Assembly: GCF_020076305.1 (NCBI RefSeq) | Contig: NZ_JAIQXE010000002.1 | Coordinates: 744,001-808,000 of the forward strand | Origin: Flavihumibacter profundi | GTDB taxonomy: Bacteria > Bacteroidota > Bacteroidia > Chitinophagales > Chitinophagaceae | Length of the DNA: 64,000 nucleotides | Direction of reading: 5' to 3' | Shown: positions 1,124 through 28,255 of the stretch, piece after piece | Position numbering within the stretch: position 1 is the first letter of the stretch | Layout of the letters: the number at the start of each line of letters is the position of its first letter | Position numbers and translations under genes: made by a program | The notes under the pieces: model-generated | Databases searched by the model: none | What the model saw: only the letters and a program-made list of their open reading frames with translations | Told to the model about the DNA's origin: nothing

Positions 1124-2134
1124 ATGAAAAAAGTTAACATAGCCATTTTGGGCATTGGCAGGATCGGGAAGATCCATTTAAAGAATATGCTTCGGCATTT
1201 TTCCGGTGTGAATGTAGTTGCTGTAGCTGATGTCAATTTCCCAGCGGATGAATTTAAAAAGGAATTCCGCGACATATTTTTTTCGAGCCAGCCTGCAGAT
1301 GTGGTTTCCATTCCCGAGGTAGAAGCAATTGTGATTTGCACTCCTACCAGTTCGCACGCGGCTATGATTGAAATGGCCGTTAAAGCGGGGAAACATATTT
1401 TTTGTGAGAAGCCGGTAGACCTTTCCCTTGAAAGGACCAGGGCCCTGGTTGAAATGGCAAAAGCTGCAGGTGTGAAACTGATGCTAGGGTTCAACCGTCG
1501 CTTTGATCCTGATTTTATGGAAGCGCGCAAGAATATCCAGGCAGGAAGGATAGGGGATATCCAGGTAGTAAAAATTACGAGCCGTGACCCGGGTTTGCCT
1601 CCACTGGATTATATAAAAAATTCGGGTGGCTTGTTTATGGATATGGCCATCCACGATTTTGATATGGCCCGTTACATGATGGGTAAAGAAGTAAAGGAAG
1701 TGTATTCAAAAGGTTTGGTATTGGTTGACAAGCAGGTGGCTGATGCGGGAGATATCGATACGGCGCTGACTACCCTCGTTTTTGAAGACGGTACTTATGC
1801 GGTTATCGACAATAGCCGTAAAGCCATTTATGGGTATGACCAGCGTATTGAAATATTTGGCAATAAAGGGATGATCCAGGTAGACAATAACCTGCACAAC
1901 CGCAATATTATTTCGGATGCAAATGGTATTCATCATGCCCTGCCACTCGATTTCTTTATGGATCGATATGCTGCATCCTACCTCGGCGAAATGCAGCATT
2001 TTATAGATGCATTGAGTAATAATGCACCATTACCTGTTACCGGGGAAGACGGGCTGAAGGCCACGGTAATTGCAGTAGCAGCGAAAAAATCAGTCGCTGA
2101 AGGCCGCCCCGTTTTGATCAGTGAAATCAAATGA
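1124..2134 (+). CDS. iolG: Inositol 2-dehydrogenase (Gfo/Idh/MocA family)
   Basis: A 336-residue oxidoreductase with an N-terminal Rossmann fold (GIGRIG at residues 10-15) and the CEKP motif whose Lys96 is the expected catalytic lysine. FMDMAIHDFD carries Asp173 and His177, matching the catalytic Asp/His pair of Bacillus IolG. The enzyme oxidises myo-inositol to scyllo-inosose with NAD+, the first step of the pathway. Its stop codon overlaps the ATG of the following lacI-type gene by 4 bp (ATGA), so translation is probably coupled. The family also contains other sugar dehydrogenases; the neighbours iolE and iolA decide the assignment. Confidence 0.85.
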   Translation: MKKVNIAILGIGRIGKIHLKNMLRHFSGVNVVAVADVNFPADEFKKEFRDIFFSSQPADVVSIPEVEAIVICTPTSSHAAMIEMAVKAGKHIFCEKPVDLSLERTRALVEMAKAAGVKLMLGFNRRFDPDFMEARKNIQAGRIGDIQVVKITSRDPGLPPLDYIKNSGGLFMDMAIHDFDMARYMMGKEVKEVYSKGLVLVDKQVADAGDIDTALTTLVFEDGTYAVIDNSRKAIYGYDQRIEIFGNKGMIQVDNNLHNRNIISDANGIHHALPLDFFMDRYAASYLGEMQHFIDALSNNAPLPVTGEDGLKATVIAVAAKKSVAEGRPVLISEIK

Positions 2135-5127: not shown

Positions 5128-5249
5128 CTGTAGAAAAAATGATTTAAGTGACTGCTTCCGGAAAAAATTGAAGAGTAGAAATATAAATGGCCTGTGAAGG
5201 CCTTTTACAGTTCATGCTTTTCTCCCGAAAGCAAAATGAATGTTATACG

Positions 5250-5439
5250 GCACCTGGCAGGTCTTCTGGCTCATTCTGCGTTAAACACCTTCCCATCAGC
5301 GCAAACTGACAGTGGTTGATTTGTTTAAGGGGTAACACTACAATTGCATCACCTGAATTTACAGCTACGGGGATAGCGCCGGGATTACACCGGACTTCCC
5401 TTTTAATCCGGTGAGGGTTAGCTCACCAGAACCGGGCAC
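5250..5439 (-). promoter_or_regulatory. Cobalamin riboswitch upstream of the btuB-like receptor
   Basis: Read on the minus strand, this leader has the core of a cobalamin riboswitch: GGGAAGTCCGGTG then AATCCCGG, CTATCCCCGTAGCTGTAA, CCACTG, GGGAAGG, and the B12 box AGCCAGAAGACCTGCC at 5256-5271. The closing stem pairs GTGCCCGG (5432-5439) with CCAGGTGC (5250-5257) with one mismatch. The 120-nt stretch between the B12 box and the btuB ATG holds a GGCC...GGCC hairpin (about 5189-5202) that may belong to the expression platform, but it lacks a strong U tract, so translational control is equally possible. Confidence 0.93.
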
Positions 5440-5443
5440 AGCG

Positions 5444-5451
5444 CGAAGGTA
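5444..5451 (-). promoter_or_regulatory. Probable -7 promoter box for the riboswitch-btuB transcript
   Basis: On the minus strand TACCTTCG differs by one base from the Bacteroidota -7 consensus TAnnTTTG. It ends about 5 nt before the first base of the riboswitch closing stem at 5439, which is where transcription would be expected to start. A perfect AT-rich palindrome (5461-5480) lies in the -33 area. Confidence 0.5.
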
Positions 5452-25107: not shown

Positions 25108-26148
25108 ATGAAAAACCGTATCATCCAACTTTGTTTAATCATAGCAGCAATGGGACTGTTCGTGGAGTCTGCCGATGCACAAGCAAAACCGGCGCGGAAA
25201 TCCAAGAAAAGAACCAGCACTGCGAAGAAAACAAGTACCAATAAAAGCAAATCAGGAAATGCTACTGCGCTTACTACAGCTCCGGCCAAGGATACCATTC
25301 CTGCTGAAACTGCAGTTTTGCCGGACCTTAACCTGGGAGAAACTAAAAAATCATTGCGTAATGATAATGCTATCGAACGCAACCTGGTAAAAGAGCGTAC
25401 CCCACTTGCATATGAGCATATCCGTGAAGATGATGCGGTTTATCGCCAGCGCCTGTGGAGGGAAATTGATGTTCATGAAAAAATGAACCTGCCCTTCATG
25501 TATAAAGCAGATGACGATAACGGTAACCAGCGGTTTATTAACATCCTGCTGGGTTCTATCAAGAGTGGAGAAGTAACGGCTTTCAGCCCTATTGATGACA
25601 GATTCACCACACCGGTAACCCTTAAGGAAATTACTGAACAACTCATTGGAAAGCCAGTGGTACAGTCTGTTCCTGATTGGGCACAGGATCCGGATGGTTC
25701 CAAAGGAATCATGAAGGATACTACGATCATCAATATGTTCAATCCGGATGATATTGAAAAATACTGGATCAAGGAAGAAGTGGTTTTCGATAAAGAATCT
25801 TCCCGCCTTCATGTACGCATACTTGGTGTGGCTCCGTTGAAGACCATCAAGAATACAGACGGATCTTTCCGTGATGTTACGCCGCTGTTCTGGGTATATT
25901 ATCCCGACATGCGTCCATTACTTGCCCGTTATGAAGCGTATAATGGCAAGAATTATGGTGCAAGGATGAGTTGGGAAGAGTTATTTGAAAGCCGCATGTT
26001 TTCAAGCCGTATTATCAAGTCAACTATCGATAATCCCGGCGACGTGATGATCGCGTCTTATGTTAAGGATCCGATCCTCCGACTCCTGGAAGGCGATAAT
26101 ATCAAAGAAAAAGTATTCAACTACGAACAGGATCTCTGGTCTTATTAA
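25108..26148 (+). CDS. gldN: Type IX secretion/gliding periplasmic protein GldN
   Basis: The 346-residue protein has a signal peptide (about residues 1-26, ending SADAQ), then a Lys/Arg/Thr/Ser-rich linker of about 45 residues (KPARKSKKRTSTAKK and onwards), and a conserved GldN/PorN domain from about residue 80 (YEHIREDDAVYRQRLWREID, FMYKADDDNGNQRFINILL, RMSWEELFESRMFSSRI). GldN joins GldK in the periplasmic ring. The basic linker is longer than I would expect and may contact the membrane, peptidoglycan or GldM; this is inference. A strong terminator follows. Confidence 0.92.
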   Translation: MKNRIIQLCLIIAAMGLFVESADAQAKPARKSKKRTSTAKKTSTNKSKSGNATALTTAPAKDTIPAETAVLPDLNLGETKKSLRNDNAIERNLVKERTPLAYEHIREDDAVYRQRLWREIDVHEKMNLPFMYKADDDNGNQRFINILLGSIKSGEVTAFSPIDDRFTTPVTLKEITEQLIGKPVVQSVPDWAQDPDGSKGIMKDTTIINMFNPDDIEKYWIKEEVVFDKESSRLHVRILGVAPLKTIKNTDGSFRDVTPLFWVYYPDMRPLLARYEAYNGKNYGARMSWEELFESRMFSSRIIKSTIDNPGDVMIASYVKDPILRLLEGDNIKEKVFNYEQDLWSY

Positions 26149-26170: not shown

Positions 26171-26196
26171 AGCCCCACTTCGGTGGGGCTTTTTTT
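26171..26196 (+). terminator. Intrinsic terminator of the gldKLMN operon
   Basis: AGCCCCAC-TTCG-GTGGGGCT is a perfect 8-bp stem with a UUCG tetraloop, followed by six T residues, 22 bp after the gldN stop codon. Confidence 0.95.
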
Positions 26197-26258: not shown

Positions 26259-26306
26259 AATACCCGGTTAAGGGTATTGCAACTACGGATTTAAGGTGTA
26301 TCTTTA
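26259..26306 (+). promoter_or_regulatory. Orphan promoter with overlapping palindrome
   Basis: AATACCCGGTTAAGGGTATT (26259-26278) has 7-bp perfect arms with a 6-bp centre. It runs into TTGC (26277-26280), 18 bp before TATCTTTA (26299-26306), which is one base off the Bacteroidota -7 box. The arrangement looks like a promoter with an operator over the -33 element. No gene lies downstream on this strand, only an intrinsic terminator. Confidence 0.45.
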
Positions 26307-26311
26307 CCTCG

Positions 26312-26373
26312 GTTTTTCATAGGATATTGGATTTTAAAAACGGGGCTGGATTTCTATCCTGGCCCCTTTTTTT
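26312..26373 (+). ncRNA. Candidate small RNA with intrinsic terminator
   Basis: From the predicted start near 26312 to the T tract, the transcript would be about 60 nt. It ends in a stem of GGGGCTGG (26342-26349) with CCTGGCCCC (26358-26366), two G-U pairs allowed, followed by seven T residues (26367-26373). There is no start codon inside. The neighbours face away or end here (gldN ends at 26148 with its own terminator; uvrC ends on the other strand at 26447), so this is a free-standing unit. I do not recognise it as a known RNA family. Confidence 0.4.
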
Positions 26374-26446: not shown

Positions 26447-28255
26447 TCAGGACTCCCCATTGAAATATTCCCACACCATTTTTGCTTTCGCGATCCCTAT
26501 TACTTTCACCAGTGATTCGAGGTTTTGCTCTTTCACCCTGCTTACACTCCTGAATGTTTTCAACAACTGGTCTGCAGTGCCTGGCCCGATTCCGGGTATG
26601 GATTGCAACTCATTCTTAAAAGTCCCCTGGCTCCTTTTCTGGCGGTGAAAAGTGATACCAAAACGATGCACTTCATCCCGTATCCTGCGGATCAGTTTCA
26701 GGCTTTCACTTTGGTAAGGAAGGCGAACCGATTCACTATCGCCCGGGAAGAAAATTTCTTCTTCATTTTTTGCTAATCCTACTACCGTCATCCTTCCCTC
26801 CAGTCCCAGCTCCCTGATACTTTCCATTGCGGCACTTAACTGGCCCTTTCCGCCGTCAATAATCACCAGCTGGGGTAAGGTTGCAGATTCATCACGAAGG
26901 CGTTTATAACGCCTGAAAACCACCTCTTTCATGGTGGCGAAATCATTTATGCCCTGAACTGTTTTTACATTAAAATGCCGGTAGTCTTTTTTACTTGCAA
27001 TACCATCCCTGAAACAAACCATGGCTGAAACCGGGTAGCTACCCTGGAAATTGGAATTGTCAAAACATTCAATATGAACAGGCAGGCTATGTAAATGCAG
27101 ATCTTCCTGCAACTGGTACAGCACTTTTTTCTTATCGAAGTCCGATTTTCCTTCCAGCAACAGGGTCTTTTTTCTTTTGATCTCTTCCTTAAAATAGTTC
27201 ACATTTTTCTCTGATAATTCCAGTAACTTCTTTTTATCACCTGCTTTAGGGATTGTAACAAGTAACTCGCCCGGCATTTCGGGTACCGGGTAAGGAACTA
27301 TGATTTCCAGGGCAAGGCTTTTGAAAGTTTCCCGCATCTGGCCTATGGCAAAAGCCAGTACCTCAGCTTCATCTTCATCAAGATGGGTCTCCAGCTGGAT
27401 CGTATGGGTTTGCACAATAGTACCGTTTTGAACCATCAGGTAATTAACATAAGCAATATCACCATCTTTCAGGATAGAGAAAACATCAAGGTTGCCCAAA
27501 TGCCTGCTGACAATTACGGATTTGGATTGGTATTGTTCCAGGTGTTCAAGTTTCTTGCGCATCAGTTCAGCTTTTTCGAACTGCATACCTGCTGCATATT
27601 CCTGCATTTCTTTCCTGAACTGTTGCATAACCGGATTCAGGTTGCCTTTCATCAGGTTTTTCAATTGCTGTAAACCGGCCGTATATTCTTCCGCTGACTG
27701 AAATCCTTCACAGGGGCCTTTACAATTGCCCAGGTGATACTCCAGGCAAACCTTGAATTTGCCTTTTCTAATATTTGCTTCGGTCAGGTTAAGTTTACAG
27801 GTCCTGATTGGAATATTCTGCCTGATGAAATCCAGCAATTCGCGCACCTTGCCGACTGAAGTAAACGGGCCAAGATATTCAGAGCCGTCATTTATTTTTT
27901 TCCTGGTAAGAAATACCCGGGGGAAGGGTTCATTTTTTATGACCAGGAAAGGATAAGTTTTATCGTCTTTCAGGTCGATATTATACCGGGGCCTGAATTG
28001 TTTGATGAGTGCGTTTTCCAGTAAGAAAGCATCCTGTTCCGAATCTACAATGGTGAATTCTATGCGTTCAATCCTTTGAACCAGTTCATGGGTTTTATAG
28101 CTGGTAAAAGTTTTTGTAAAATAGGAGCTTACCCGCTTACGCAGGCTTTTAGCTTTGCCTACATACAAAAGGGTATCTGAAGCGTCATAATATTTGTAAA
28201 TACCAGGAGCTAATGGAATGGTGTGCGCAATTTGCTGGAAGGCTGCCGTTGTCAT
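26447..28255 (-). CDS. uvrC: Excinuclease ABC subunit C
   Basis: The 602-residue protein has all UvrC domains in order: GIY-YIG nuclease (APGIYKYYDASDTLLYVGKAKSLRKRV, about residues 17-43), a four-cysteine cluster region (CKLNL...CLEYHLGNCKGPCEGF), the UVR motif (FEKAELMRKKLEHL), the RNase H-like nuclease (ECFDNSNFQGSYPVSAMVCF) and a C-terminal helix-hairpin-helix (IPGIGPGTADQLLKTF). UvrC makes both incisions during nucleotide excision repair. It lies 18 bp after a lipoprotein gene in the same direction and is probably the last gene of that transcript. Confidence 0.95.
   Translation of the reverse strand: MTTAAFQQIAHTIPLAPGIYKYYDASDTLLYVGKAKSLRKRVSSYFTKTFTSYKTHELVQRIERIEFTIVDSEQDAFLLENALIKQFRPRYNIDLKDDKTYPFLVIKNEPFPRVFLTRKKINDGSEYLGPFTSVGKVRELLDFIRQNIPIRTCKLNLTEANIRKGKFKVCLEYHLGNCKGPCEGFQSAEEYTAGLQQLKNLMKGNLNPVMQQFRKEMQEYAAGMQFEKAELMRKKLEHLEQYQSKSVIVSRHLGNLDVFSILKDGDIAYVNYLMVQNGTIVQTHTIQLETHLDEDEAEVLAFAIGQMRETFKSLALEIIVPYPVPEMPGELLVTIPKAGDKKKLLELSEKNVNYFKEEIKRKKTLLLEGKSDFDKKKVLYQLQEDLHLHSLPVHIECFDNSNFQGSYPVSAMVCFRDGIASKKDYRHFNVKTVQGINDFATMKEVVFRRYKRLRDESATLPQLVIIDGGKGQLSAAMESIRELGLEGRMTVVGLAKNEEEIFFPGDSESVRLPYQSESLKLIRRIRDEVHRFGITFHRQKRSQGTFKNELQSIPGIGPGTADQLLKTFRSVSRVKEQNLESLVKVIGIAKAKMVWEYFNGES

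Follow-up and report, generated by a model that had tools for sequence, protein, structure and literature searches.

The gap between the convergent genes gldN and uvrC of Flavihumibacter profundi, in which a palindrome, a promoter-like sequence and a terminator-like hairpin follow one another, raises the question of what is made there. The whole 64,000-nt stretch of DNA that was analyzed is called the window here. A sequence-only reading of it had proposed a regulated small RNA of about 60 nt, which it did not recognize. The elements that it had described (palindrome, TTGC, 18-nt gap, −7 box, 35 nt, GC-rich stem and seven T residues) were read letter by letter as claimed, and NCBIfam models confirmed both neighboring genes (Table 1). 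The comparisons below indicate that the gap very probably encodes a small RNA of about 60 nt, which is multicopy in most of the family genomes examined, and that its reading as a regulated RNA was very probably right. The RNA that had not been recognized is a multicopy Chitinophagaceae RNA resembling the FopS sRNA of Bacteroides. We consider it likely that the locus is a stand-alone gene for a trans-acting sRNA of about 63 nt, with a promoter switched by a regulator and a 5′ seed that would block start codons.

Table 1. Features of the gldN–uvrC gap and its neighbors (positions in the window)
Feature	Position	Strand	Basis or remark
gldN, type IX secretion ring subunit, upstream neighbor	25108..26148	+	NCBIfam TIGR03523, 166 bits
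gldN intrinsic terminator, between gldN and the sRNA unit	26171..26190	+	terminator scan
Palindromic operator (inferred) AATACCC-N6-GGGTATT	26259..26278	.	sequence reading, arms conserved over 15 loci
Left arm AATACCC	26259..26265
Inner bases GGTTAA
Right arm GGGTATT	26272..26278
−33 promoter element ATTG	26276..26279	+	19-bp spacer to −7 box
−7 promoter element TATCTTTA	26299..26306	+	TAnnTTY at −12; Flavobacterium johnsoniae consensus
Small RNA gene, about 63 nt	26311..26373	+	predicted +1 to end of T7
5′ seed GGTTTTTCATAGGATATTGGATT, nearly invariant	26311..26333	+	antisense to ..CCTATGAAAAACC
Terminator hairpin GGGGCTGGATTTCTATCCTGGCCCC	26342..26366	+	10-pair stem, 4 pairs with both-side changes
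T7 tail of terminator	26367..26373	+	direct reading
uvrC, convergent downstream neighbor	26447..28255	−	NCBIfam TIGR00194, 486 bits

The predicted start of the RNA was set by the positions of the −7 consensus of Flavobacterium johnsoniae, which is T−12 A−11 T−8 T−7 T−6 G−5; the promoter consensus is TTTG/TANNTTTG (PMC6847099). The TTGC at 26277–26280 is followed by 18 nt and then by the −7 box TATCTTTA, but the upstream element is better placed at the ATTG, which is overlapped by the right arm of the palindrome. A sigma-70 scan found no promoter, which is expected for a Bacteroidota promoter. From this start a Bacteroidota primary-sigma promoter would drive an RNA that would end at the bulged GC-rich hairpin with its T7 tail, 35 nt from the −7 box to the hairpin, and the length predicted from this anatomy is about 63 nt. 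There is no ATG between 26311 and 26373, in agreement with the claim that the transcript has no start codon. The hairpin and tail together had a folding energy of −16.3 kcal/mol (z −3.37), with none of 200 shuffles as stable, while the fold of the whole RNA was less striking (z −2.21; 9 of 200 shuffles as good). The 5′ end was partly paired in the minimum free energy fold and little paired in the centroid. The bulge in the hairpin is the probable reason why a simple terminator scan did not report it. Elsewhere in the window, a cobalamin riboswitch (RF00174, 94.5 bits) was found at 5239–5451 on the minus strand.

The strongest evidence against a chance arrangement comes from conservation, in the form of an ungapped alignment of orthologous loci. 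A 201-nt query found relatives with E < 1e-18 in all 15 genomes of the genus, giving 20 loci, 17 of which have a GldN-like C-terminus upstream of the sRNA. Fifteen loci (14 from the genus and one from another) could be aligned over 63 nt without gaps. The sequences AAAATACC and GGGTATT, and the TA and TTT of the −7 box, are invariant among them, while the seventh letter of the left arm and the inner six bases of the palindrome vary. That the arms are kept and the inner six bases are variable is the pattern of a site bound by a dimer. Of the five loci left out of the alignment (L016–L020), one is a paralogue (L019) and the others are from four genomes outside the genus; each of the five differs in 5 or more of the 14 arm letters, and the palindrome is absent from them.

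GTTTTT comes after the hairpin on the opposite strand, and the hairpin could also end uvrC, the end of which is about 73 bp away. The T-rich sequences after the hairpin on both strands would also fit a mere bidirectional terminator between the convergent gldN and uvrC, with an incidental promoter and palindrome. We regard this explanation as quite improbable, because gldN has a terminator of its own, conservation is highest in the 5′ seed and not in the hairpin, copies with the same seed are present at other loci, and the palindrome and the −7 box are conserved. The earlier statement that nothing else explains a promoter and a terminator here was slightly too strong for the terminator.

The search of related genomes with a covariance model, which had been proposed as a check, was done with a model built from 27 copies, without FopS sequences. 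It found four copies in the own genome, at C2:770311, C3:746505, C1:1288599 and C3:127266, of which the one at C3:127266 has a variant seed. Of the 24 family genomes searched, 22 gave copies at E ≤ 3e-6. As for the remaining two, one (G015) gave no match and the other (G019) a weak match without the seed (L108). Up to nine copies, at E values of 1.2e-5 or better, were found in one relative (G018). The first 21 nt are nearly invariant over the 27 copies, while the linker and the stem vary. Over 26 distinct rows the stem of 10 pairs is 93.8% paired, and 13 cells show changes on both sides; none of 500 shuffles reached either value. Four pairs carry such changes, a number that 28 of 500 shuffles reached and that was equaled on sliding the partners by −1; all other slides gave lower numbers. 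Across the class the model matched 22 of 295 genomes, 16 of them outside the family; 14 of these 16 matches were read, of which 12 lacked the seed and two had part of it (L291 and L297), and none was counted, while L290 and L298 were not placed and were left out.

The seed was also searched for on its own. This search, which used 22 seed bases in named genomes and is independent of the covariance model, gave at least 123 matches in at least 119 stretches, and with one match without flank left out the set comprised 122 copies. Each of the 80 titles among the matches listed was from Bacteroidota, and many were marked Chitinophagaceae. An intrinsic terminator lies within the next 85 nt in 117 of the 122 copies listed, compared with 2 of 122 windows placed 300 nt away. 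TAnnTTY starts exactly at −12 in 59 of these 122, so that about half of the copies listed are without the tested −7 pattern. The stem and the −7 box are therefore conserved in relatives, so that for these two the lack of conservation that would have counted against the sequence-only reading was not observed. Several variants were observed along the way. A sub-family with the seed TTTTCATAGGGTACGGATT was read at L023:2512–2575, L027:2498–2561 and L030:2499–2562, and matches of similar score (36.5–39 bits) were present in 14 of 15 genus genomes, three of them read. Another seed variant, GGTTTTTCATAGGATATGGTTAA, was seen in two family genomes from outside the genus (L104, L293 and L305), and tandem pairs of sRNA seeds about 200–290 bp apart were seen at L144, L172 and L189.

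The presence of several near-identical copies per genome, sometimes in tandem, could point to a dispersed mobile or repetitive element of the REP or MITE kind in place of RNA genes. This seems very improbable, as paralogues share only the seed and not their linkers, stems or upstream sequences, the stem shows compensatory changes, no shared element ends were seen by eye, and a copy follows gldN in several genera. Even less credible is an RNA that encodes a very short peptide. A TTG inside it does open a short frame, but besides the lack of an ATG this frame is not kept, since in many copies the linker is 1–3 nt different in length from that of the window copy, which argues against a peptide.

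The palindrome was the only site without mismatches in the window in a motif scan, while with three mismatches allowed the six sites found there, compared with 3.84 expected, were unremarkable. The exact sequence AATACCC-N6-GGGTATTG occurs once in the 4.87-Mb genome. With one mismatch it was found in 20 of 25 genomes, including the own genome, in 83 rows compared with 6 for the reversed pattern, where the rows count palindromes on both strands and 15 are from one genome, mostly from a repeat array. The combination of the palindrome with a −7 box at 15–45 bp gave 36 sites in 29 of 117 family genomes, compared with two for the reversed pattern. Among 30 palindrome-promoter loci that were fetched, eight, in seven genera, precede the sRNA (L369 among them), and two sites that were not fetched (G009:C7 and G584:C3) coincide with sRNA copies. 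The palindrome was also looked for before other genes, as the sequence-only reading had suggested, and it was found before open reading frames: at 17 of the 22 other fetched loci a frame of at least 60 codons starts with ATG within 110 nt. Many of the palindrome-linked frames have signal-peptide-like starts, as judged by eye. The ten palindrome-linked proteins scanned included one with Response_reg and GerE domains, encoded behind a palindrome site of the family (L382), two with a caspase domain, three with other domains and four without a Pfam match. The caspase-domain (Peptidase_C14) genes preceded by a palindrome-promoter are from two genera (L393 and L397).

Most other copies of the RNA are not associated with this site. 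With up to two mismatches, no operator was found in the stretches that hold the other three copies of the own genome. An operator-like ATACC-N8-GGTAT with one mismatch was present within 70 nt upstream of 15 of the 122 seed-only copies listed, compared with 0 of 115 control windows, and 14 of these 15 sites start at −51 or −52, while the remaining 107 of the 122 copies listed have no such site. The palindrome is conserved in the genus, and in several but not all other genera it stands before the RNA. On this evidence the switch belongs to this copy after gldN and not to the RNA family.

The TACCC-N6-GGGTA core is identical in letters and spacing to that of an engineered NarL 7-2-7 site at E. 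coli narG, TACCCCTAAAGGGGTA (PMC4549865), and the inverted heptamers with TACCC lie 2 bp apart, as in the 7-2-7 arrangement. From this geometry we infer a regulator of the NarL/FixJ type, and a dimer of such a response regulator probably binds the palindrome and would thereby switch the copy after gldN. The NarL operator is from another phylum. Here the palindrome reaches into the −33 box of its Bacteroidota promoter. This overlap suggests repression, while activation is possible. A NarL-type palindrome before an sRNA in several genera, and before a second sRNA-like unit, is apparently new.

This second unit is unrelated to the sRNA and likewise consists of an orphan promoter and terminator behind the palindrome, close to a gene that looks Fur-like by eye. 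Every one of the 15 genus genomes has a locus at which its 3′ core, from AATAGCTACTAATCAGAGCCTTAACC to the terminator, is near-identical (L399–L413; for example L062:1352–1521, minus strand). The 13 arm letters AATACCC/GGGTAT upstream of it are exact in 11 genomes, one letter off in two and two letters off in two, and the copy of the own genome (G000:C3:777706–777859) is among the last. Further matches exist to the 3′ part of this unit alone, and the palindrome is missing from a second locus with the AATAGCTACTAATCAGAGCCTTAACC core (L414). A third promoter-terminator unit, which follows an ECF-sigma/anti-sigma-like gene pair (by eye), has the palindrome AATAACC-N6-GGGTATTG (L052, L053 and L064, around 1352–1521, minus strand). 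Rfam searches with the second and third units gave only sub-threshold matches. At L370 and L396, around 1500–1700, a palindrome-promoter is followed by a terminator-like hairpin with no close open reading frame (by eye), and these two loci may be further sRNA units.

At least one more conserved sRNA-like unit has the conserved operator of the copy after gldN. A wider reading, which we put forward only tentatively, is that a NarL/FixJ-type regulator acting at AATACCC-N6-GGGTATT commands a Chitinophagaceae regulon that includes several unrelated sRNA genes. One signal would then alter the transcription of some genes for exported proteins and block the translation of many others through sRNAs antisense to start codons. 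A comparable logic is that of sigmaE with MicA and RybB in enterobacteria. If this regulon reading were true, it would describe a circuit for the control of envelope output in Bacteroidota. The defined DNA switch of the sRNA is directly testable, and the palindrome before the second sRNA-like unit offers a handle on the signal.

The pairing partners of the seed were considered next to the start codons of the own genome. The nearly invariant 5′ end of the RNA is the antisense of a start of the form ..AAUAUCCU-AUG-AAAAACC. The octamer ATGAAAAA is the commonest start octamer, present at 16 of 361 called starts in 464 kb of the own genome, where the called starts are those of the longest frames and some are wrong. 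Starts account for 14% of the occurrences of ATGAAAAA, compared with 2.1% for all ATG octamers. By a crude signal-peptide rule, 11 of these 16 starts look exported, compared with 88 of the other 345 (p 0.0005). Of 20 SusC genes, four have ATGAAAAA at the first in-frame ATG listed, compared with 16 of the 361 starts (p 0.016). Other results speak against pairing at start codons: the pairing of SusC start regions was unremarkable (−7.2 to −15.7 kcal/mol), the mean duplex energy at 200 start sites was not significantly stronger than with 25 shuffled seeds, and matching upstream of the ATG at the 361 starts was equal to that of permuted templates.

Individual sites were also compared. Near-perfect complements of the seed were rejected as a class of targets: an 18-mer search with up to three mismatches in the 15 genus genomes, with 45 exact matches taken as sRNA copies, gave 100 other sites compared with 104 for the reversed pattern, and thus no excess. 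Seven of 20 in-register sites with an intact ATGAAAAA, which are part of those found, look like real starts, compared with 13 of 87 ATGAAAAA sites generally (p 0.055). Two candidates were noted, which are CAGATAACCT-ATGAAAAA before an exported protein in four genus genomes, two of them read (L417 and L434), and GCAATAAGCT-ATGAAAAA, which opens a frame of the own genome with a SusC-type match (C1:285346–285849; L415). The start of gldN, ATGAAAAACC, is the exact complement of nucleotides 1–10 of the sRNA and the best in-register match among the 361 starts, and it was present in all 11 loci of the genus where it was read. As a general target gldN was rejected, because at post-gldN loci of other genera (L008, L016, L017, L018 and L020) its start differs while the seed is the same.

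The genome encodes two proteins with an RRM_1 domain, and the one scanned passes the NCBIfam model Rbp_regulator with 124.6 bits, compared with a cut-off of 100. RbpB of Bacteroides thetaiotaomicron is reported to prefer 5′-GUAGGAUA-3′ (Adams et al. 2021, as cited in PMC12119571), and UAGGAUA (AUAGGAUA) in the seed has seven of its eight letters and is formed by a GA insertion that FopS lacks. On this resemblance, binding of the RNA by such a protein is putative. An alternative is that the constant 5′ end serves mainly to bind an RRM protein, which the RNA would titrate or which would act through it, and is not an mRNA seed. Besides the motif, the constant stretch of about 21 nt, which is longer than start-codon pairing needs, the weak average pairing at start sites and the binding of RbpB to the 5′ part of FopS all favor this alternative, to which we give a low but real probability. 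The same constant part is, however, also the antisense of the starts of exported genes, including the AUG, which would hardly be expected by chance if the site served protein binding alone, and the two roles are not exclusive. The reading that we prefer remains that of a seed, which would most likely bind the start codons of mRNAs for exported proteins (Met-Lys-Lys/Asn) and block their translation, much as FopS represses susC, possibly together with an RbpB-like RRM protein.

FopS of B. thetaiotaomicron has 14 copies with a single-stranded 5′ seed, a terminator and sigmaABfr promoters, binds RbpB via its 5′ part and represses the translation of susC (PMC11697453). The RNA described here is likewise multicopy and short, with about 63 nt compared with about 65–70 nt for FopS (RF04319). 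Its 5′ GUUUUUCAUAG..UAUU.GAUUU directly follows a promoter of the sigmaABfr type (assigned by sequence, from the −33 and −7 elements and the +1 at 26311), and the 5′ part is followed by an intrinsic terminator, although the minimum free energy fold pairs some of it. The R1′ seed is present at the 5′ end with one substitution and a 2-nt insertion (GA), and only 2 of 20,000 dinucleotide shuffles were as good; with TTTTTCAT fixed, 554 of 20,000 equaled this likeness. The differences are in the seed as stated, in the linker and the stem, and in the order of the bacteria; a further feature of the post-gldN copy is the palindromic operator on its promoter. FopS targets susC, whereas there is no sign here of SusC as the main target.

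The window RNA scored 18.8 bits (E 1.1) with the RF04319 model, below its gathering cut-off of 56 bits. Other Rfam matches below their cut-offs, which were MicC, frnS, SorY, the L20 leader and sR4, were judged to be due to chance; the MicC score (23.5 bits, cut-off 90) was above that of FopS. In the reverse direction, the model of the Chitinophagaceae family matched nine FopS loci in two genomes at their exact positions (L041, L042 and L044–L050), with weak scores of 16.4–19.5 bits (E 0.0096–0.071). A tenth locus (L043) scored 18.1 bits although a long frame of the opposite strand spans it, so that such covariance scores are not decisive. Within the class, RF04319 matched three of 99 genomes, two of them above the cut-off and the third at L043, and it matched none of the three own-family genomes among the 99.

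The pattern TTTTTCATAG-N0-3-TATTNGATT was found in 23 of 395 genomes of the phylum, compared with one match for the reversed control. It was present in 11 of 14 own-family genomes, in all four of the FopS-bearing family f48 and singly in eight others, with no clear intermediate family among the 395 genomes. Six of the eight matches outside both families lie antisense over the ATG of a frame of at least 158 codons, and five of these six frames have signal-peptide-like starts (by eye). This indicates that the seed is the antisense of the start of an exported gene, which supports the mechanism and weakens the case for descent from a common RNA; the likeness to FopS may have arisen by convergence on start-codon antisense. 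At one locus of a third family (f37; L327, around 1500), a FopS-like seed without a clear −7 box is followed by a terminator-like hairpin.

In the open-licence literature we found no paper on FopS genes outside Bacteroidaceae or on sRNAs of Chitinophagaceae or Flavihumibacter, and the one other paper that names FopS, which concerns Porphyromonas gingivalis, does so only in citing the study of B. thetaiotaomicron. The Bacteroidota sRNAs for which we found known targets in print come from gut Bacteroides. Among these, GibS, which has the R1 seed in common with FopS, likewise acts on start codons (PMC7366714), but it is 145 nt long, with two seeds and a non-canonical promoter. Judged by its design, the RNA described here would work most like FopS, and it is best called FopS-like, not FopS, by the Rfam cut-off. 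A FopS-like family of start-codon antisense RNAs in another order would mean that this control of exported proteins is older, or was reinvented more often, than has been assumed.
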